Of a DNA stretch of 64,000 bases, positions 9,340 through 18,055 are shown piece after piece. How positions within the stretch are numbered: position 1 is the stretch's first letter; the number at the start of each line of letters is the position of its first letter. The stretch is from an uncultured Flavobacteriaceae bacterium (GTDB lineage: Bacteria; Bacteroidota; Bacteroidia; Flavobacteriales; Flavobacteriaceae). Where the stretch lies: assembly GCA_947501845.1 (NCBI GenBank), contig CANMXP010000001.1:248001-312000 (forward strand), read 5' to 3'. The notes below the pieces were generated by a model. The model had not been told where the DNA came from, searched no databases, and saw nothing but the letters and a program-made list of their open reading frames with translations. The position numbers and the translations under genes are program-made.

Positions 9340-9833
9340 TAATTATAAACAGTAATTACATTTATATGTAGTTGCTGTTTATAATTAAAAAAGACTTCCG
9401 AAATAACAGCTAATTCTTCAGAGTCAACGACAAAGTTTTTTTAATTTCTTTACTTACTGGGCATCCTAAATTTTGACCGTTAGCATCAAAAGAATCGACT
9501 AAGAGTTCTCATTTATTATTGAAAATCAAACAAAACGGAATACCAGATTTGTACATCCCTAACACCAGCATTTTCTATATGTTTATTTTTTTAGACTCGA
9601 TTGATTACTAAGTGCTCAATAACGTAATTTTTATTAAACAATTCTTTACATCTAGAATCATCCATTTTTTTTGCACCACCCACACTAAGAGGCATGAAAA
9701 ATTACAAAAACATTTCTATTTTAGCTTGTAAGCTTGCGGTTTCAAGATTTTTTTCGGCACTTTCTTGAATAAAAGCATTATTATGACTAATAAAAAAAAT
9801 GCTAGACAAAGTAAATACGGTTTTTAATTTCAT
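9340..9833 (-). pseudogene. Decayed thioredoxin-like protein gene
   Basis: Reading the minus strand, an ATG at 9833 opens a signal-peptide-like start (MKLKTVFTLSSIFFISH). After stops and frame changes comes CGWCKKMDD (CxxC motif codons at 9684-9673, with TAG directly before them), then KELFNKNYVIEHLVI, then SGIPFCLIFNN, then DANGQNLGCPVSKE, and finally SEELAVISEVFFNYKQ. The order matches secreted thioredoxin-family proteins of Bacteroidota: CGWC active site, IPF cis-Pro loop, GCP region. At least three in-frame stops or shifts show that the gene is dead. It occupies most of an otherwise empty 640-base gap before the his leader. Confidence 0.7.
9341..9386. terminator. Long hairpin after the prohibitin-like gene
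   Basis: The 12-base arms AATTATAAACAG and CTGTTTATAATT enclose a second stem TACAT/ATGTA. The following T run is poor, so termination is likely but not proven; the hairpin also lies at the 3' end of the minus-strand pseudogene. Confidence 0.5.
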
Positions 9834-9919
9834 AATTATGCATTAGATTAATTTATTCTCTAAAATTAAATAAATTTTAAAGTCTATTTAATAATAATTA
9901 TTAAATTTTCAAACTATAA

Positions 9920-9952
9920 TTTGGAACTATGGTTATAAATTATAGATATTTG
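9920..9952 (+). promoter_or_regulatory. Candidate his operon promoter
   Basis: TTTG at 9920-9923, a 21-base spacer and GATATTTG at 9945-9952 approximate the Bacteroidota consensus TTTG / TAnnTTTG, with one mismatch at the first base of the -7 element. Transcription would start near 9958, about 12 bases before the leader peptide. Confidence 0.5.
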
Positions 9953-9969
9953 CACAAATAAAAGAAAAC

Positions 9970-10023
9970 ATGAACTTTATTCAATTACATCATCATTTTC
10001 ATATTTGCTCTCAAGCGAAGTGA
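9970..10023 (+). CDS. hisL: Histidine operon leader peptide
   Basis: A 17-residue frame encodes MNFIQLHHHFHICSQAK, with four His codons within five positions (9988-10002) just before the attenuator. Such a His run in a short ORF upstream of hisG is the hallmark of transcription attenuation: ribosomes stall here when charged His-tRNA is scarce. The stop TGA overlaps the first base of the 3' arm of the pause hairpin. The peptide itself probably has no function. Confidence 0.88.
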   Translation: MNFIQLHHHFHICSQAK

Positions 10024-10088
10024 AAATGTATTGAATAAAATCAACATATTTTTTAAACCCGTTTGAGACAATCAAGCGGGTTTTTTAA
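9994..10088 (+). promoter_or_regulatory. His operon attenuator with pause hairpin, antiterminator and terminator
   Basis: Three pairings can be read. Pause hairpin: CATTTTCA (9994-10001) with TGAAAATG (10021-10028), and inside it TTTGCT (10004-10009) with AGCGAA (10014-10019). Terminator: AAACCCGTTTGA (10055-10066) with TCAAGCGGGTTT (10072-10083) around a 5-base loop, followed by a T run. Antiterminator: CTCAAGCG (10010-10017) with CGTTTGAG (10060-10067), which uses the 5' arm of the terminator and is therefore exclusive with it. A ribosome stalled on the His codons blocks the pause hairpin and frees 10010-10017, allowing read-through into hisG. A ribosome reaching the stop covers that segment and lets the terminator form. 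Confidence 0.88.
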
Positions 10089-10132
10089 TTTTAATTCCAA
10101 ATTGATTGTTTCAAACTCATAAAAACAACAAA

Positions 10133-10990
10133 ATGAGTAAATTAAGGATTGCAGTACAAAAGTCGGGACGTTTAAACGAAGACTCGATGAAAATTTTAAA
10201 AGATATCGGTATTTCTATCGATAATGGTAAAGATCAATTAAAAGCATCAGCCAAAAACTTTCCCGTAGAAGTTTTTTACTTAAGAAACGGAGATATTCCA
10301 CAATACCTTAAAGATGGTGTTGTAGATGCAGCTATTATTGGTGAAAATGTTCTCATCGAAAAGGGGAATGATATTAAAGTTGCCGAAAAATTAGGATTCT
10401 CAACCTGTAGAGTTTGTATTGCTGTACCAAAATCGGTTGATTATAAAGGCATAAAAAATTTAGAGGGCAAACGCATTGCTACATCTTATCCCAATACCGT
10501 TAATCAGTATTTAAAAGCGAATAATATTACTGCCAATCTGCATATCATCAATGGCTCGGTAGAAATTGCACCAAATATAGGCTTAGCAGATGCTATATGT
10601 GACATTGTTTCTAGCGGAAGTACCTTGTTTAAAAACAACCTAAAAGAGGTTGAGATGATTTTAAAGTCGGAAGCCGTATTAGCTATTTCACCGCTTCTTG
10701 GTGACGATAAACAAGCGATTCTTGATAAGATCCAGTTTAGAATTCAATCCGTATTAAAAGGACGTCAATCAAAATATATTCTGTTAAATGCTCCTAACGA
10801 GAAAATTCAAGACATCATTAATGTCTTACCAGGCATGAAAAGTCCAACCGTTCTACCATTAGCACAAGAAGGGTGGAGCTCTGTACATTCCGTTATAAGT
10901 AAAAATGAGTTTTGGGATGTTATTGATGAATTAAAAGCGAATGGTGCTCAAGGTATTTTAGTTTGTCCAATTGAAAAAATGGTGCTTTAA
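10133..10990 (+). CDS. hisG: ATP phosphoribosyltransferase (long form)
   Basis: HisG catalyses the first step of histidine synthesis, joining ATP and PRPP, and is normally inhibited by histidine. The 285-residue length indicates the long form with a C-terminal regulatory domain (about 210-285), so HisZ is not needed. Family motifs include QKSGRLNEDS near the start and DIVSSGSTL in the PRPP site. The frame is open 9 codons further upstream, but MSKLRIAVQKSGRL is the natural start. Expression is controlled by the leader and attenuator directly upstream. Confidence 0.97.
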   Translation: MSKLRIAVQKSGRLNEDSMKILKDIGISIDNGKDQLKASAKNFPVEVFYLRNGDIPQYLKDGVVDAAIIGENVLIEKGNDIKVAEKLGFSTCRVCIAVPKSVDYKGIKNLEGKRIATSYPNTVNQYLKANNITANLHIINGSVEIAPNIGLADAICDIVSSGSTLFKNNLKEVEMILKSEAVLAISPLLGDDKQAILDKIQFRIQSVLKGRQSKYILLNAPNEKIQDIINVLPGMKSPTVLPLAQEGWSSVHSVISKNEFWDVIDELKANGAQGILVCPIEKMVL

Positions 10991-11062: not shown

Positions 11063-12346
11063 ATGCAAATTATAAATAATCCAAATAGAGAAAATTGGTC
11101 GCAAATTTTGGAACGACCAACACAAACAGTAGATGATATTGAGGATATAGTGAGTACTATTTTTAATGATGTAATTAAAAATGGGGATACTGCTATAAAT
11201 GAATATACTACGCGTTTTGACGGAGTTGATTTACAATCAAATATCGTTACTAAAGAAGCTATTCAAAAAGCTATAAAAAGTGTTCCTGAAAAGCTTCAAA
11301 AAGCTATAAAGAATGCCAAACAAAACATTGAGGCGTTTCACACAGCTCAAAAGACATCTAAAATAACCGTTGATACCACAAACGGCGTACAATGCTGGCA
11401 GGAAAAACGCCCTATTGAAAAAGTAGGCCTGTACATTCCTGGAGGGACAGCACCCTTATTTTCCACAGTTTTAATGTTAGCTATTCCCGCTCAAATTGCT
11501 GGCTGTAAAGAAATTGTATTATGTTCGCCTCCAAATAAAGAAGGCGAGCTGGCACCAGAAATTCTTTTTGCAGCACAACTTTGTGGCGTTACAAAAATTT
11601 TTAAAGTTGGAGGTATCCAAGCCATTGCTGGATTAACATTTGGGACAGAAACCATTCCTCAGGTTTATAAAATTTTCGGGCCAGGAAATCAATTTGTTAC
11701 CGTTGCCAAACAGCTTGCTACAAAATTTGGAGTTGCCATTGATATGCCTGCAGGACCAAGTGAACTGTTAATAGTTGCTGATGATGAAGCTAATGCATCC
11801 TATATTGCTTCAGATTTATTAAGTCAGGCAGAACATGGTGAGGATAGTCAGGTTATTTTAGTATCGACTTCTAAAAATTTGATTAACTCTGTTTCAGAAG
11901 AAATTGAAAAACAGATTAAAGAATTGCCGAGACAAGCCATTGCAGAAAAAGCAATTGCGAACTCTAAACTCATTTATATAAAAAACAATGAATTAGCACT
12001 TAGTTTAATCAATGAATACGGTCCAGAACACTTTATTATCTGTACTAAAAATGAAGATTTCTATATAAACGGTATAACCAATGCAGGTTCTATATTTATA
12101 GGAGACTATACACCAGAAAGTGCAGGCGATTATGCCTCAGGAACCAATCATACCTTACCCACAAACGGTTTTTCTAAAGCTTATTCTGGGGTAAACTTGG
12201 ATAGTTTTTTAAAGAGTATGACCTTTCAAAAAATATCTAAGGAAGGTTTGTTAAACATTGGCGAAACCATAGAGTTAATGGCAGAAGCTGAGGGCTTACA
12301 AGCACATAAAAATGCTGTAACTATTCGATTAAAAGATTTGAAATAA
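11063..12346 (+). CDS. hisD: Histidinol dehydrogenase
   Basis: HisD oxidises histidinol to histidine in two NAD-dependent steps with zinc. The 427-residue product is full length. It shows GLYIPGGTAPLFSTVLM, the nucleotide-binding region GPGNQFVTVAKQ, the zinc-site segment SQAEHGEDSQ, and EYGPEHFI with the catalytic Glu-His pair. It is second in the his operon, 72 bases after hisG; the gap contains repeat remnants rather than a terminator. Confidence 0.97.
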   Translation: MQIINNPNRENWSQILERPTQTVDDIEDIVSTIFNDVIKNGDTAINEYTTRFDGVDLQSNIVTKEAIQKAIKSVPEKLQKAIKNAKQNIEAFHTAQKTSKITVDTTNGVQCWQEKRPIEKVGLYIPGGTAPLFSTVLMLAIPAQIAGCKEIVLCSPPNKEGELAPEILFAAQLCGVTKIFKVGGIQAIAGLTFGTETIPQVYKIFGPGNQFVTVAKQLATKFGVAIDMPAGPSELLIVADDEANASYIASDLLSQAEHGEDSQVILVSTSKNLINSVSEEIEKQIKELPRQAIAEKAIANSKLIYIKNNELALSLINEYGPEHFIICTKNEDFYINGITNAGSIFIGDYTPESAGDYASGTNHTLPTNGFSKAYSGVNLDSFLKSMTFQKISKEGLLNIGETIELMAEAEGLQAHKNAVTIRLKDLK

Positions 12347-12394
12347 CTTTGTTTTTTCTACTTAGGTAGGAATCTCATGAATCTATTTTTAAAA

Positions 12395-13453
12395 ATGAAA
12401 ACATCAAGTTTCAATATAGATAACTTAATAAGGCCAACCATCAAGGCACTAAAACCTTATTCATCGGCAAGAGATGAATTTCAAGGGAATAGTGATGCTA
12501 TGGTATTTCTGGATGCCAATGAAAATCCATTTGAAAATGGCGTGAATCGTTATCCAGATCCGCAACAAGGCAGCCTAAAGCAGATACTTTCTAAAATGAA
12601 AAGTGTCAACACCAAAAATATCCTTCTAGGAAATGGTAGTGATGAAGTATTAGATCTTATTTTTAGAGCTTTTTGTGAGCCAAATAAAGATAATATTATC
12701 ATATTACCACCAACTTATGGCATGTATAGTGTACTAGCCAATATTAATGCTATCGACATAAAAAAAGTACATCTATCAAACAGTTTTCAACCACAAGTTG
12801 AAACTATTTTGGATACAGCAGATGATAATAGTAAAGTTCTTTTTCTATGCTCACCAAACAATCCAACGGGTAATAGTTTTTCAGATCAGTCCATTGAAGA
12901 ATTACTAAACAAGTTTAATGGAATTGTAGCCATAGACGAAGCTTATATCGATTTTTCAGAAGAAGCTAGTTGGATTAATAGGCTAGAAGAGTTTCCTAAT
13001 TTAATAGTTACCCAAACGCTTTCTAAAGCTTATGGGATGGCTGGAATTAGACTTGGTATTTGCTATGCATCCGCTGAAATCATTTCAGTTTTAAATAGCA
13101 TAAAACCGCCATACAATGTGAATGAATTAACCCAACAAAAGGCTGTTCAACAATTAAGTATAAAGGATCTGGCTAAAAATCAGATCAATGCTATTTTAAA
13201 AGAACGCGCTAATTTAATTTCTGAATTAGAATCGATTGATTTTATTTCAAAAATTTATCCATCAGATGCCAATTTTGTATTAGTTAAGGTTGATGATGCA
13301 ACCAAACGTTATGACCAACTTATAGAAAAAGGTATAGTAGTAAGAAATAGAACCACCCAACCAGGCTGCCAAAATTGTTTAAGATTAACGGTTGGAACCC
13401 AAGAGGAAAATGAAATATTGATAAAAATGCTTTTATTAATATCGAAATCCTGA
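12395..13453 (+). CDS. hisC: Histidinol-phosphate aminotransferase
   Basis: HisC is a PLP-dependent aminotransferase acting on imidazole acetol phosphate. The product is 352 residues from MKTSSFNIDNLIRP; an ATG 18 bases upstream is possible but adds residues unlike the family. Motifs are ANENPF (substrate entry), SPNNPTGN, DEAYIDF and the PLP Lys in TLSKAYGMAGIR (K211). The stop codon TGA is part of the left palindrome that bounds the GIY-YIG gene, so the insertion trimmed or just avoided the 3' end of hisC. Confidence 0.96.
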   Translation: MKTSSFNIDNLIRPTIKALKPYSSARDEFQGNSDAMVFLDANENPFENGVNRYPDPQQGSLKQILSKMKSVNTKNILLGNGSDEVLDLIFRAFCEPNKDNIIILPPTYGMYSVLANINAIDIKKVHLSNSFQPQVETILDTADDNSKVLFLCSPNNPTGNSFSDQSIEELLNKFNGIVAIDEAYIDFSEEASWINRLEEFPNLIVTQTLSKAYGMAGIRLGICYASAEIISVLNSIKPPYNVNELTQQKAVQQLSIKDLAKNQINAILKERANLISELESIDFISKIYPSDANFVLVKVDDATKRYDQLIEKGIVVRNRTTQPGCQNCLRLTVGTQEENEILIKMLLLISKS

Positions 13454-13466
13454 ACTTGTTTCAGGA
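13448..13466. repeat. Left palindrome flanking the GIY-YIG gene
   Basis: TCCTGAA (13448-13454), 5-base loop CTTGT, TTCAGGA (13460-13466). The arms are identical to those of the right palindrome at 13789-13807. It contains the hisC stop codon. Confidence 0.8.
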
Positions 13467-13497
13467 GTTTTTAAAATTAAAATGGCATGTTAATAAT

Positions 13498-13782
13498 TTG
13501 AAACAAAAGTACTATGGCTACATTTTAACTAATAAAAATAGAACGGTGTTAAATATTGGCTATACAAATGATTTAAATAGAAGGATTAGTGAGCACCAAA
13601 AAGGTAAAGGTGCATTGTTTACAAAAAAATACAATGTTTCATCCTTAATATATTATGAGGCATTTGAAAATATATCAGAAGCCAAATCAAGAGAAAAACA
13701 ATTAAAGAATTGGCATAAAGAATGGAAATGGAATCTTATTAAGAATTCCAATTCAGAGTTAAAAACATTGACTATTAATTAA
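13498..13782 (+). CDS. Small GIY-YIG nuclease-domain protein inside the his operon
   Basis: This short protein (about 94 residues) matches the YhbQ-like single-domain GIY-YIG family: YYGYILTNKN for the GIY strand, VLNIGYTNDLNRR for the YIG strand and conserved Arg, then FENISEAKSREKQLKNW with the conserved acidic and basic residues. GIY-YIG domains cut DNA. Two features suggest weakening: no ATG precedes the domain, so TTG at 13498 (or TTG at 13456) must serve as start, and YIG is NIG. It has no role in histidine synthesis and is bounded by matching TCCTGAA-N5-TTCAGGA palindromes, so it looks like an inserted cassette. It lacks a terminator and so lets his transcription pass. Confidence 0.8.
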   Translation: MKQKYYGYILTNKNRTVLNIGYTNDLNRRISEHQKGKGALFTKKYNVSSLIYYEAFENISEAKSREKQLKNWHKEWKWNLIKNSNSELKTLTIN

Positions 13783-13788
13783 ATAAGG

Positions 13789-13807
13789 TCCTGAAATAAA
13801 TTCAGGA
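13789..13807. repeat. Right palindrome flanking the GIY-YIG gene
   Basis: TCCTGAA (13789-13795), loop ATAAA, TTCAGGA (13801-13807). Same arms and loop length as the left copy; only the loop differs. Confidence 0.8.
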
Positions 13808-13824
13808 TCATATAACAAAGTTAT

Positions 13825-14958
13825 ATGAAAAAAGTATTATTTATAGATCGTGACGGTACTATTATCAGAGAACCTGCTGATGAGCAAATAGATGCACTGG
13901 ACAAATTAGAGTTTTACCCTAAAGTGTTTCAATATTTAGCTAAAATAGCTAATGAATTAGATTATGAAATGGTTATGGTAACCAATCAAGATGGCTTAGG
14001 TACAGATGCCTTTCCTGAAAGTGATTTTTGGCCTATTCATAATTTTATAATTAAATGCTTTGAAGACCAAGGCATTGTTTTTAAGGAGCAGTTCATAGAT
14101 AGAACTTTTGCAAAAGATAATGCGCCAACAAGAAAGCCCAACACAGGGTTATTGACAAAATATTTTTCTGATGATTACGATTTAGAGAATTCATTTGTGA
14201 TAGGAGATAGGCTAACAGATATTGAATTGGCTAAAAACTTAGGAGCAAAAGGTATCTTTATAAATGATGAAACACATTTGGGAACTAATGAAATCACTGT
14301 AAAAAGAGACCAGTTAGATCCTTTTATAGCTTTAGAAAGTAATGATTGGAAAAAAATATATACCTTCTTAAAAACCAGTGCACGTACTGGAGAAATTATT
14401 AGAAATACTAATGAAACGAAGATTGCCATTCAAGTAAATCTAGATGGAACAGGGAAAAGTGAAATTAATACAGGACTAGCCTTTTTTGACCATATGCTAG
14501 ATCAAATAGCGCGTCACGGACAAATTGATCTCACCATAAATGTAGATGGGGATTTAGAAGTTGATGAGCACCACACGATCGAAGACACTGCCATCGCATT
14601 AGGGGAGGTGTTTAACACAGCTCTAGGAAATAAATTAGGGATAGAACGTTATGGCTTTTGTTTGCCTATGGACGATTGCTATGCCCAAGCGGCTATCGAC
14701 TTTGGCGGAAGAAATTGGCTCGTATGGGAAGCTGATTTTAAACGTGAAATGATTGGAAAAATGCCAACAGAAATGTTCTATCACTTCTTTAAATCGTTTA
14801 CAGATGGTGCAAAATGCAATTTAAATATTAAGGCAGAAGGACAAAATGAACATCATAAAATAGAAGCTATTTTTAAAGCGTTTGCAAAGGCCATAAAGAT
14901 GGCGGTAAAACGTGATATAGAGAAAATGATTTTACCGTCGACAAAAGGCATGTTATAA
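13825..14958 (+). CDS. hisB: Bifunctional histidinol-phosphatase / imidazoleglycerol-phosphate dehydratase
   Basis: The 377-residue protein joins a HAD-type phosphatase (residues 1 to about 170; DRDGT with D8 and D10, TNQDGLG, and [18 protein letters not shown]) to an IGP dehydratase (about 180-377; [37 protein letters not shown], whose His/Glu residues bind manganese). It supplies steps 6 and 8 of histidine synthesis. It follows the GIY-YIG cassette within the his operon. Confidence 0.97.
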
Positions 14959-15032
14959 AATTTAAAAATTCAGATAGACGAATTACGAATTTACACCTCG
15001 TAAACCTGATATTATAAAAACCAAAAAATCAA

Positions 15033-15614
15033 GTGAAATTAGTCATTATTAACTATGGTGCTGGAAACATTAAAAGCATTCAATTTGCTTTTAAACGCTT
15101 AGGGATTGACGCTGTTTTATCAAATAATCCAGAAGAAATTTTAGCTGCAGACAAAATTATTTTCCCTGGTGTTGGTGAAGCAAGTTCTGCCATGACCATG
15201 CTTAAAGAGAGTGGATTAGATAAGCTTATTCCTAATTTAAAACAGCCCGTTTTGGGGATCTGTCTTGGTATGCAATTATTATGCGAATCAACCGAAGAGG
15301 GACATACAAAAGGTCTTGGTATATTTAGAACAAAAGTAAAACGCTTTAGCAATGATGTAAAAGTGCCACAAATGGGGTGGAATGTTATCAAAGACCTGAA
15401 ATCTAATTTATTTTTTGGGATTAAAGAGAATGAATATATGTATTTAGTACATAGTTATTACGCAGAACACTGTGATGAAACTATTGCAAAAACTGATTAT
15501 GGTATTAATTATGCTTCAGCTTTGCAACACAATAATTTCTATGGTGTACAGTTTCACCCAGAAAAGAGTAGTTTAGCAGGTGTTAAGATTTTACAGAATT
15601 TTTTAGAACTCTAA
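15033..15614 (+). CDS. hisH: Imidazole glycerol phosphate synthase, glutaminase subunit
   Basis: HisH releases ammonia from glutamine and channels it to HisF. The 193-residue class I glutamine amidotransferase has GICLGMQLL with nucleophile C77 and QFHPEKS with the His-Glu pair. The start codon is GTG, giving MKLVIINYGAGNIKS, the family start. The hisF partner is encoded about 1 kb downstream. Confidence 0.95.
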   Translation: MKLVIINYGAGNIKSIQFAFKRLGIDAVLSNNPEEILAADKIIFPGVGEASSAMTMLKESGLDKLIPNLKQPVLGICLGMQLLCESTEEGHTKGLGIFRTKVKRFSNDVKVPQMGWNVIKDLKSNLFFGIKENEYMYLVHSYYAEHCDETIAKTDYGINYASALQHNNFYGVQFHPEKSSLAGVKILQNFLEL

Positions 15615-15633
15615 ATTATATTAATTAGCTTTC

Positions 15634-15810
15634 ATGAATGAAATAGATAAAAAAACGATACTTGAAACTTACAAATGAATTAAAGTTGAAAAGTATAAAG
15701 ATGATGAAAATTTATCTTGGGAAGAACGCTATAAGAATTTAGAAAAGCATCATATAGAAGAAACTACATTCTTGATTAAGAAGATAAGAGAAGTTGTTAA
15801 AAATATTTGA
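15634..15810 (+). pseudogene. Small ORF of unknown family with an in-frame stop
   Basis: A 59-codon frame runs MNEIDKKTILETYK, stop (TGA 15676-15678), IKVEKYKDDENLSWEERYKN and on to KKIREVVKNI. A single TGG-to-TGA change would restore one continuous, charged, helical protein of about 58 residues, so this is probably a recent nonsense mutation. Alternatively the second part could be made from an internal start, but no ATG follows the stop in frame. I do not recognise the family. It sits between hisH and hisA and is not a histidine gene. Confidence 0.5.
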
Positions 15811-15869
15811 CAGACCATAATGAGCGCCAAAATGTCTCAATTATAAAGTAGTATTAATTAAAAAAGTCC

Positions 15870-15883
15870 CCTGCCTTCGCAGG
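15870..15883. repeat. Short palindrome directly upstream of hisA
   Basis: CCTGC, loop CTTC, GCAGG, ending 7 bases before the hisA ATG where a ribosome binding site would be expected. Confidence 0.5.
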
Positions 15884-15890
15884 AAATATC

Positions 15891-16625
15891 ATGAGAATAA
15901 TACCAGCCATAGACATAATCGACGGAAAATGCGTTCGATTAACCAAAGGAGATTACGACACTAAAAAAGTGTATAATGAAAACCCTTTAGAGGTTGCGAA
16001 GATGTTTGAAGACTCTGGCATTGAATACCTGCATTTGGTTGATTTAGATGGCGCAAAGGCAAAACATATTGTGAATTACAAAATACTAGAGCAAATAGCG
16101 TCTAAAACAAGTCTTAAAATAGATTTTGGAGGTGGCTTGAAAACAAATGAAGATTTACATATTGCTTTTAATTCTGGTGCAAAACAGATTACAGGAGGAA
16201 GCATTGCTGTTAAAGACCCTGAAACATTTGAAGGTTGGATTAATAAATATGGCGCCGAAAAAATTATTTTAGGTGCCGATAGTGACCAAGGGAAAATATC
16301 CATTAGTGGTTGGATGGAGCAAAGCAAGGAAGACGTTATTCCGTTTATTAAATCTTATCAAAAGAAAAGCATCAAATATGTTATTTGTACAGATATTTCA
16401 AAGGACGGTATGCTTGAAGGGCCATCAATTGAATTGTATAAGCAAATTATTTCAGAATGTACCAACAGCAGTAATGATCAATCCATTAGGTTAATCGCAT
16501 CTGGTGGTATTTCATCTATTGAGGAGTTACCTGCTTTAAAAGAAATTGGCTGTGAAGGTGTCATAATAGGAAAGGCTATTTATGAAAATAGAATAAGCCT
16601 GTACGAATTAGAAAAATTTATATAA
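15891..16625 (+). CDS. hisA: ProFAR isomerase (HisA)
   Basis: HisA performs the Amadori rearrangement of ProFAR. The 244-residue TIM barrel has [17 protein letters not shown] with D8, DFGGGLKT for phosphate binding, the second catalytic Asp region [15 protein letters not shown], and ASGGISS for the second phosphate site. A palindrome lies just before its start. It is followed after 3 bases by hisF, indicating tight coupling. Confidence 0.96.
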
Positions 16626-16628
16626 TAC

Positions 16629-17384
16629 ATGCTAACAAAAAGAATCATACCCTGCCTAGACATTAAAAATGGCCGAACCGTAAAAGGTGTTAATTTTGTT
16701 GATTTACGTGATGCTGGTGACCCTGTTGAATTGGCCAAGCAATATGCCGATATTGGAGCAGATGAATTGGTCTTTTTAGATATTTCGGCAACGTTAGAAG
16801 GGCGGGCTACTACTTTAGATATGGTATTACATGTCGCGGAGCAAGTAAACATCCCATTTACCGTTGGCGGTGGGATCTCATCTATTGGAGATGTAGATGC
16901 TTTATTAAAATGTGGGGCAGATAAAGTCTCCATAAATTCATCAGCCGTTAAAAGACCTGAACTGGTTAATGAACTATCCGATAAATTTGGTAGTCAATGT
17001 GTTGTTGTTGCTATAGATGCAAAACAAGTAGATGGTGAATGGAAAGTACATTTGGCTGGAGGTAGTATTTCAACCGATATTGATTTGTTTGAATGGGCAA
17101 AAGAAGTGGAAACACGTGGTGCAGGAGAAATTCTGTTTACCTCCATGAATCATGACGGTACTAAAAATGGTTTTGCTAATGAGGCTTTAGCCAAGCTGTC
17201 TGAGGCTTTAAACATTCCAATTATAGCCTCTGGGGGAGCAGGAAATGTACAGCATTTTATAGATACCTTTAAAGAAGGCAAGTCTGATGCTGCTTTGGCT
17301 GCTAGCGTATTTCATTTTGGTGAAATTCCAATTCCAGACTTAAAAAAAGAATTAAAAGCGAATAATATAGAAGTGCGACTATAA
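16629..17384 (+). CDS. hisF: Imidazole glycerol phosphate synthase, cyclase subunit
   Basis: HisF is the cyclase TIM barrel that receives ammonia from HisH. The 251-residue product shows [20 protein letters not shown] (catalytic D11), VGGGISS, the second catalytic Asp region [21 protein letters not shown] and IASGGAGN, all at standard positions. A short palindrome follows the stop codon. Confidence 0.97.
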
Positions 17385-17386
17385 TC

Positions 17387-17402
17387 CCCTTGCCCCAAAG
17401 GG
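17387..17402. repeat. Short palindrome between hisF and hisIE
   Basis: CCCTT (17387-17391), loop GCCCCA, AAGGG (17398-17402), 2 bases after the hisF stop; no T run, so it is unlikely to terminate. Confidence 0.45.
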
Positions 17403-17428
17403 AATTTTACGAGTAAAAAATTAAAGTT

Positions 17429-18055
17429 ATGATAAATAAAAAAAATATAAATATTATTTCTCCCTCTTGGAGGGAGTTAGAAGGGGCTCTCGTTCCAGCA
17501 ATCATACAAGACGCTACCACTAAAAATGTATTGATGCTGGGATATATGAACGAAGATGCTTATCAAAAAACAATTGAAACCAAACAGGTAACTTTTTTTA
17601 GCAGGAGCAAACAACGGTTATGGACTAAAGGAGAAGAGAGTGGCAACTTTTTAAACCTAGTTGATATAAAAAATGATTGTGATAACGATACACTTTTAAT
17701 TCAGGTAAACCCTGTTGGCCCTACATGCCACAAAGGCACAGACACTTGTTGGAAAACAGAGAACGAACAATCGTATGGTTTTTTCTCAACCTTAGAGAAC
17801 GTTATTACAGAACGTATTTCTAATAAAGACACCAAAAAATCATACGTTGCAAGTCTATTTGATAAAGGCATTAATAAAATAGCCCAAAAAGTAGGAGAGG
17901 AGGCTGTAGAAACTGTTATTGAAGCTATGGATAATAACGACGAACTGTTTTTATATGAATCTGCCGACTTATTATTTCACTATTTAATGCTACTTAAAGC
18001 TAAAGGATTCAGCTTAAAAGATATTGAGGAAGAATTAAAAGGAAGACACAAATAA
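17429..18055 (+). CDS. hisIE: Bifunctional phosphoribosyl-AMP cyclohydrolase / phosphoribosyl-ATP pyrophosphatase
   Basis: The fused enzyme supplies steps 2 and 3 of histidine synthesis. Residues about 20-115 are HisI (MLGYMNEDAY, FFSRSKQRLWTKGEESGN, and the metal Cys region GPTCHKGTDTCW). Residues about 120-208 are HisE (EEAVETVIEA and ESADLLFHYLMLL). At 208 residues it is slightly longer than expected because the N-terminal residues PSWRELEG are encoded by a palindromic repeat (CTCCCTC / GAGGGAG, 17460-17476) that sits in frame. It is the last gene of the his operon. Confidence 0.95.
   Translation: MINKKNINIISPSWRELEGALVPAIIQDATTKNVLMLGYMNEDAYQKTIETKQVTFFSRSKQRLWTKGEESGNFLNLVDIKNDCDNDTLLIQVNPVGPTCHKGTDTCWKTENEQSYGFFSTLENVITERISNKDTKKSYVASLFDKGINKIAQKVGEEAVETVIEAMDNNDELFLYESADLLFHYLMLLKAKGFSLKDIEEELKGRHK
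17460..17476. repeat. Palindrome encoded within the N-terminus of hisIE
   Basis: CTCCCTC, loop TTG, GAGGGAG: perfect 7-bp arms. It is read in frame as part of SPSWRELEG. Confidence 0.65.

Follow-up and report, generated by a model that had tools for sequence, protein, structure and literature searches.

The window, by which we mean the entire stretch of 64,000 nucleotides analyzed, contains a his operon that is preceded by a short His-rich leader ORF, a set of alternative RNA pairings, and a terminator (Table 1). An earlier note on this DNA had placed the leader directly ahead of hisG, and the Pfam families of the downstream gene identify it as such. Between hisC and hisB, the operon harbors an ORF resembling GIY-YIG nucleases (PF01541; 13456-13782). 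The hisB gene (13825-14958) encodes a HAD-type phosphatase domain fused to imidazoleglycerol-phosphate dehydratase, and the longest gap of the operon, 276 nt without a convincing ORF (15615-15890), separates hisH from hisA.

Table 1. Positions of the features of the his leader and operon within the window
Feature	Positions	Strand	Remarks
Candidate Bacteroidota-type promoter	9920-9952	+	TTTG at 9920-9923; GATATTTG at 9945-9952
Leader ORF	9970-10023	+	17 codons, reads MNFIQLHHHFHICSQAK, then stop
Pause (anti-antiterminator) hairpin	9994-10028	+	9994-10001 with 10021-10028 and 10004-10009 with 10014-10019
Segment C, antiterminator 5' strand	10009-10017	+	Within the last leader codons; partner 10060-10068
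Segment D, terminator 5' arm	10055-10066	+	
D'	10061-10075	+	GTTTGAGACAATCAA; part of D, terminator loop, and first bases of T; matched by E
Segment T, terminator 3' arm	10072-10083	+	U run at 10081-10086
Element E	10102-10116	+	TTGATTGTTTCAAAC; 15-bp complement of D'; p = 0.002 against 500 shuffles
hisG, first operon gene	10133-10990	+	PF01634, PF08029
hisD, hisC, GIY-YIG ORF, hisB, hisH, hisA, hisF, hisIE	11063-18055	+	Names from Pfam families and gene order

The 17-codon His leader, the pause hairpin, the terminator, and the antiterminator described in the earlier note were all found where it had located them, and all of their arms pair fully. The MNFIQLHHHFHICSQAK leader contains four His in five codons (HHHFH). 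In the pause hairpin, 8/8 positions are paired in the outer arms and 6/6 (one G-U) in the inner arms; the proposed antiterminator arms, 10010-10017 and 10060-10067, pair at 8/8 positions (one G-U), and the D:T helix of the terminator at 12/12 (one G-U). Segment C pairs with D, the same strand as T does, and in this sense mimics the terminator 3' arm, as had been noted. Within 9600-10400, this terminator was the sole terminator-like site (0.1 expected), and the rule of at least three His in six codons followed by a terminator selected a single one of 850 tiles on both strands of the 64-kb window, namely the tile at this locus. The candidate promoter motif GATATTTG is an inexact copy that matches seven of the eight positions of TAnnTTTG, which we take to be the Bacteroidota promoter consensus. 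Of 171 loci, 64 have an exact TAnnTTTG no more than 60 nt upstream of the leader ATG, as compared with 159 of 3,420 mononucleotide shuffles.

This anatomy, together with the comparative pairing described below, suggests how the leader would operate. Fast reading of the His run would leave C held in the pause hairpin, so that D would pair with T and transcription would stop before hisG. When charged His-tRNA is scarce, a stalled ribosome would cover the 5' strand of the pause hairpin, and the freed C would pair with D before T is made, which would allow transcription to go on.

We folded the RNA under masks that represent the ribosome, assuming that its footprint reaches 13 nt beyond the start of the codon being read. 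In the RNA ending at 10070, masking to 10001, 10004, or 10007, which corresponds to a ribosome at His codon one, two, or three, gave 9 bp of C:D antiterminator pairing (-17.7 kcal/mol, inner hairpin included). With the mask of the Phe codon, C:D was reduced to 7 bp; with that of the fourth His (10000-10002), 4 bp were left, and later masks left none. Since the masked folds give 9 bp as opposed to 4 bp, the HHH run is, according to these models, well placed for control, whereas the fourth His codon probably exerts weak control. With all positions up to 10031 masked, the terminator hairpin had -17.0 kcal/mol, and in the RNA extending to 10090 the lowest-energy fold contained the terminator under every mask tried. 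In a separate comparison of the pairings in the window under masking, D:T had -33.3 kcal/mol and C:D -32.9. Since the terminator wins once T is present, the antiterminator must form first, as classical attenuation assumes. With this proviso, the logic of alternative pairing set out in the earlier note is upheld.

To place this leader in context, we collected 190 hisG upstream regions, of which 186 are unique (4 duplicates). They comprise 30 from the window's own genome and near relatives (loci from 30 of 43 matching genomes), 80 from named organisms (the best 80 of 584), 40 at the family or order level (12 fetched in addition to those 30, and 28 picked by hand where 168 of 199 genomes matched), and 40 at the class level (110 of 247 genomes matched; 40 were picked by hand, about one per family). 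Among the best 80 of 584, the nearest named genus by HisG was Flavivirga, with 95% identity. Of the 186 unique Bacteroidia loci, 170 combine a His-run ORF with a terminator after it, as compared with 1 of 930 dinucleotide shuffles; by set, the counts were 12/12 (genus), 93/95, 37/39, and 28/40 (class). Of the 16 loci that failed this test, 12 were among the 40 class-level loci. The other four lie outside the class set: L030 and L132 failed because no six codons contain more than two His, and L095 and L117 because there is no T run, although their hairpins are visible by eye. The homologs of hisG have thus largely kept the His run and the terminator. The suggestion in the earlier note that attenuation is unusual in the phylum does not agree with the class-level count, nor with the window's own genome, which also contains a Trp-rich leader MNTILNNTWWWSFRNLRS with a terminator before a trp gene, as read by eye (L192, G000:C8), and an Ile/Val-rich leader MKKQILNIVSIIVIVIISQQ with a terminator before ilvD (L196, G000:C3). 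The Trp-rich leader is a match to Bacteroid-trp (RF01692) over the cut-off (59.1 bits). The leader peptides of Flavobacteriaceae end alike, in S/T/A/P-Q-A-R/K/N/S, apparently because those codons encode the antiterminator strand; their common start, FIQL, may be kept through pairing with a segment past the stop codon.

The complementary segments are preserved as well. Far from Flavobacteriaceae, many loci have another terminator core (GGCTTACC..GGTAAGCC), and C varies along with it. For 79 distinct D, the energy of C:D was -13.0 kcal/mol with the own partner and -9.8 kcal/mol with permuted partners, and none of 5,000 permutations reached the own value; the same result (0/5,000) was obtained when the test was confined to the 38 D that have another core. 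For the pause hairpin, the own and permuted values in 171 loci were -13.8 and -10.6 kcal/mol (0/2,000 permutations), and the nearest-pair test gave a modest signal (25 of 44 better, 8 ties, p = 0.03). C:D and the pause hairpin thus both fit their own partners better than swapped ones, and the homologous loci pass the part of the earlier note's refutation test that concerns the His run and the complementary segments. No covariation of C:D was seen within Flavobacteriaceae, where the D arm barely varies and 26 contrasts gave 9 better and 9 ties.

The earlier note did not mention a further partner of the terminator region. Element E, located between the U run and hisG, forms a helix of 15 bp, one G-U included, with D', and 16 nt separate its end from the AUG. 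E was detected at p ≤ 0.05 in 113 of 136 unique loci that share this type of terminator and have a spacer of 30 nt or more, in 1 of 11 loci with shorter spacers, and in 4 of 28 loci with other cores. E-positive loci were defined by this threshold for each locus, at which about 1 in 20 of those tested is expected by chance, and the other-core positives L152 and L162 are probably chance matches. Eleven of the 190 loci, L095 and L117 among them, have no terminator by the rule and were left out of the E tests. A general association of E with attenuators was considered and dropped, as neither of the other two leaders of the same genome has such an element: no E-like complement was found between the terminator and the next gene start in the trp leader (p = 0.42) or in the ilvD leader (p = 0.16; last 60 nt, p = 0.54).

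The terminator loop and E vary together across genera, as illustrated by GAGTAAATC with GATTTACTC, GAGCAAAT with ATTTGTTC, and GTCTGAG with CTCAGAC. Over 130 distinct D/E combinations, D:E had a mean energy of -13.0 kcal/mol, as compared with -8.8 kcal/mol when E was swapped with that of a different D (0/5,000 permutations), and 43 of the 54 D classes were better than both swaps. On a tree derived from HisG alone (103 of 107 proteins, L002-L111), 26 path-disjoint contrasts, taken greedily with the closest pair first, gave 23 better, 2 ties, and 1 worse (p = 3e-6). The single contrary contrast is that of L015 with L046, one of which has a 122-nt spacer without E. This coevolution shows that D:E is a selected RNA pairing. 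We regard the locus, with high confidence, as an attenuator of his operon transcription that is mediated by the ribosome and in which E is a third, selected RNA partner.

The position of E is closely tied to the start of hisG. From the 3' end of E to the hisG AUG, the median distance was 15 nt (interquartile range 13-15.5), and 99 of 119 rows fell within 11-17 nt, as compared with 19% in the shuffled null. These distances were counted from the unpaired flanking base, and the last paired base is usually 1 nt farther (15 versus 16 in the window); the 119 rows, like those of the listing of E partners, include three duplicate loci. The distance from E to the terminator, in contrast, varies widely, from 3 to 70. 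Where palindromic extra sequence lies between the terminator and E, E is still near the AUG (15 in L047, 13 in L052, 19 in L055), whereas in L017, L065, L081, and L136 it is E and the AUG that are separated by such sequence, and the distance is 45-48. Extra, partly palindromic sequence between the attenuator and hisG was seen in several genera (L010, L012, L036, L043, L046, L065, L079, and L100); it is, for example, of the TACCCACTTTCGTGGGCA or TTCCTGCGAAAGCAG type, and E is absent in some such loci and intact in others. The leader accordingly has a conserved helix that competes for D and keeps its place relative to the hisG start, as is to be expected of a dual transcription/translation attenuator. 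Bacteroidia rely little on Shine-Dalgarno pairing.

E is transcribed after the terminator and therefore cannot affect the termination decision. We infer from this, and from the near-fixed distance to the start codon, that E probably acts on the read-through mRNA, most likely on the initiation of hisG translation; its place points to hisG translation or mRNA fate. The energies predicted for the three pairings, averaged over 114 loci, were -34.7 kcal/mol for D:T, -30.7 for D:E, and -29.9 for C:D. D:T is thus on average 4 kcal/mol more stable than D:E, which beats C:D in 72 of the 114 loci (median 1.1 kcal/mol) and D:T in 16. In unconstrained folds of 121 E-positive loci, T was the partner of the D apex in 113 loci and E in 8; the window's own free fold contains D:E. 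According to this order of energies, E could displace C on escaped mRNAs, but would usually lose to T at equilibrium.

One way in which E might act is as the second step of a two-tier attenuator, in which C, T, and E contend for the arm and loop of D, and the same stall would set first termination and then, via E, the translation of hisG. We put this forward tentatively, as a reading that may hold with the odds somewhat against it. A direct masking of the hisG start by E (ACUCAU, 10115-10120, against AUGAGU, 10133-10138) was also considered; although only 2 of 3,000 permutations reached the E:start complementarity of the own sequences, it was dropped as a general mechanism because the tree contrasts gave just 14 of 31 better, with 5 ties.

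Alternatively, D:E may serve as an eraser or insulator: E would oust C after the RNA polymerase has passed, leaving a permissive hairpin just outside the hisG ribosome site. The greater stability of D:E than of C:D in most loci is consistent with this, and the free terminator loop could provide a toehold. For the window, the folds predict a more open AUG with D:E than with C:D (0.27 versus 0.04), a small effect that leans toward an insulator rather than a second lock. On the other side stand the small size of these differences and the fact that T is usually the most stable partner of D, and we consider this account possible, if rather unlikely.

In Sinorhizobium, the trp leader sRNA is rnTrpL. 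The sections consulted of PMC7298713 describe the Sinorhizobium trp leader peptide as acting in trans, which provides a precedent for a third possibility, namely that the terminated leader sRNA, freed when histidine is ample, pairs in trans with E of the residual hisG mRNA and lowers its translation. Complementarity cannot tell cis from trans. A cis copy of D is, however, always nearer, and in the terminated RNA D is locked in a stable hairpin, so that action in trans appears improbable.

It could also be argued that the locus is a plain attenuator, which accounts for everything up to 10088, and that E is there by chance or is a remnant duplicate of the terminator arm. E is dispensable, being absent (p > 0.05) from 23 of 136 roomy, 10 of 11 short-spacer, and 24 of 28 other-core loci. 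Unlike a mere copy of the arm, though, E also matches the terminator loop, and it changes with that loop in 23 of 26 independent contrasts, which makes an incidental origin very improbable. Lastly, D' and E form a 15-bp inverted repeat with 26 bp between its arms, close to the gene, but they can hardly be the half-sites of a DNA-binding regulator, since the loop part differs between genera (54 D classes) and the departures from pairing are mostly G-U where this is possible. We counted these departures in the register richest in Watson-Crick pairs, for 100 E-positive loci with at least 8/12 Watson-Crick positions. Where D has G or T, 135 of the 168 cells without a Watson-Crick pair are G-U wobbles; where D has A or C, the corresponding transitions, which would not pair there, account for 11 of 40 (p = 4e-10). 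This pattern marks E as an RNA pairing.

The selected pairing of E thus extends an attenuator that is itself of an ordinary, known kind. In enterobacteria, the his attenuator (hisL) comprises a His run, a pause hairpin, a terminator, and an antiterminator directly before hisG. The locus in the window shares the His run, the pause hairpin, the alternative pairing, and the place before hisG, but its run is shorter (HHHFH) and E is an additional partner. No Rfam family matched at gathering scores in the whole window; at E ≤ 5, the region 9900-10200 gave 17 matches, none of them His_leader (presumably RF00514) and none at its own gathering score, which we read as chance. Vitreschak and colleagues reportedly predicted attenuators in Bacteroidetes in 2004, and our survey indicates that a his attenuator of the classical kind commonly precedes hisG in Bacteroidia. 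The presence of such an attenuator before flavobacterial hisG is already hinted at in the portions consulted of PMC9723704, which report a structured 5' element without Rfam hits upstream of hisG in Flavobacterium psychrophilum and other Flavobacteriaceae genera, as well as clues to leader-peptide attenuation before amino-acid operons. That element is probably the same as the one in the window; the main text of PMC9723704, as far as consulted, gives no mechanism for hisG and no E-like element. The attenuation passage seen in PMC8305728 is about Salmonella and E. coli. Bacteroid-trp (RF01692), tabulated in the part consulted of PMC2864571 as a leader of trp genes in Bacteroidetes, differs from the his leader in that the copy in the window's genome has no E-like complement (p = 0.42). 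In the excerpts of the attenuation literature covered, main texts from searches with other aims, E is not described.

What is new is therefore a third RNA partner near the hisG start that has been evolutionarily maintained here and in many relatives. It offers a precise target, backed by coevolution, for asking whether a transcription attenuator also sets the translation of the downstream gene. For such a translational step there is a known counterpart in the trp leader of Bacillus subtilis, where the TRAP protein is the sensor and a hairpin blocks trpE. In both systems strands of the terminator region would act on the translation of the first gene, which is established in B. subtilis and inferred for the window, and the sensing differs, in that the ribosome in the his leader takes the part that TRAP plays in B. 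subtilis. If the two-tier reading is true, the switch would extend classical amino-acid attenuation across a whole lineage, that of Flavobacteriaceae and their relatives.
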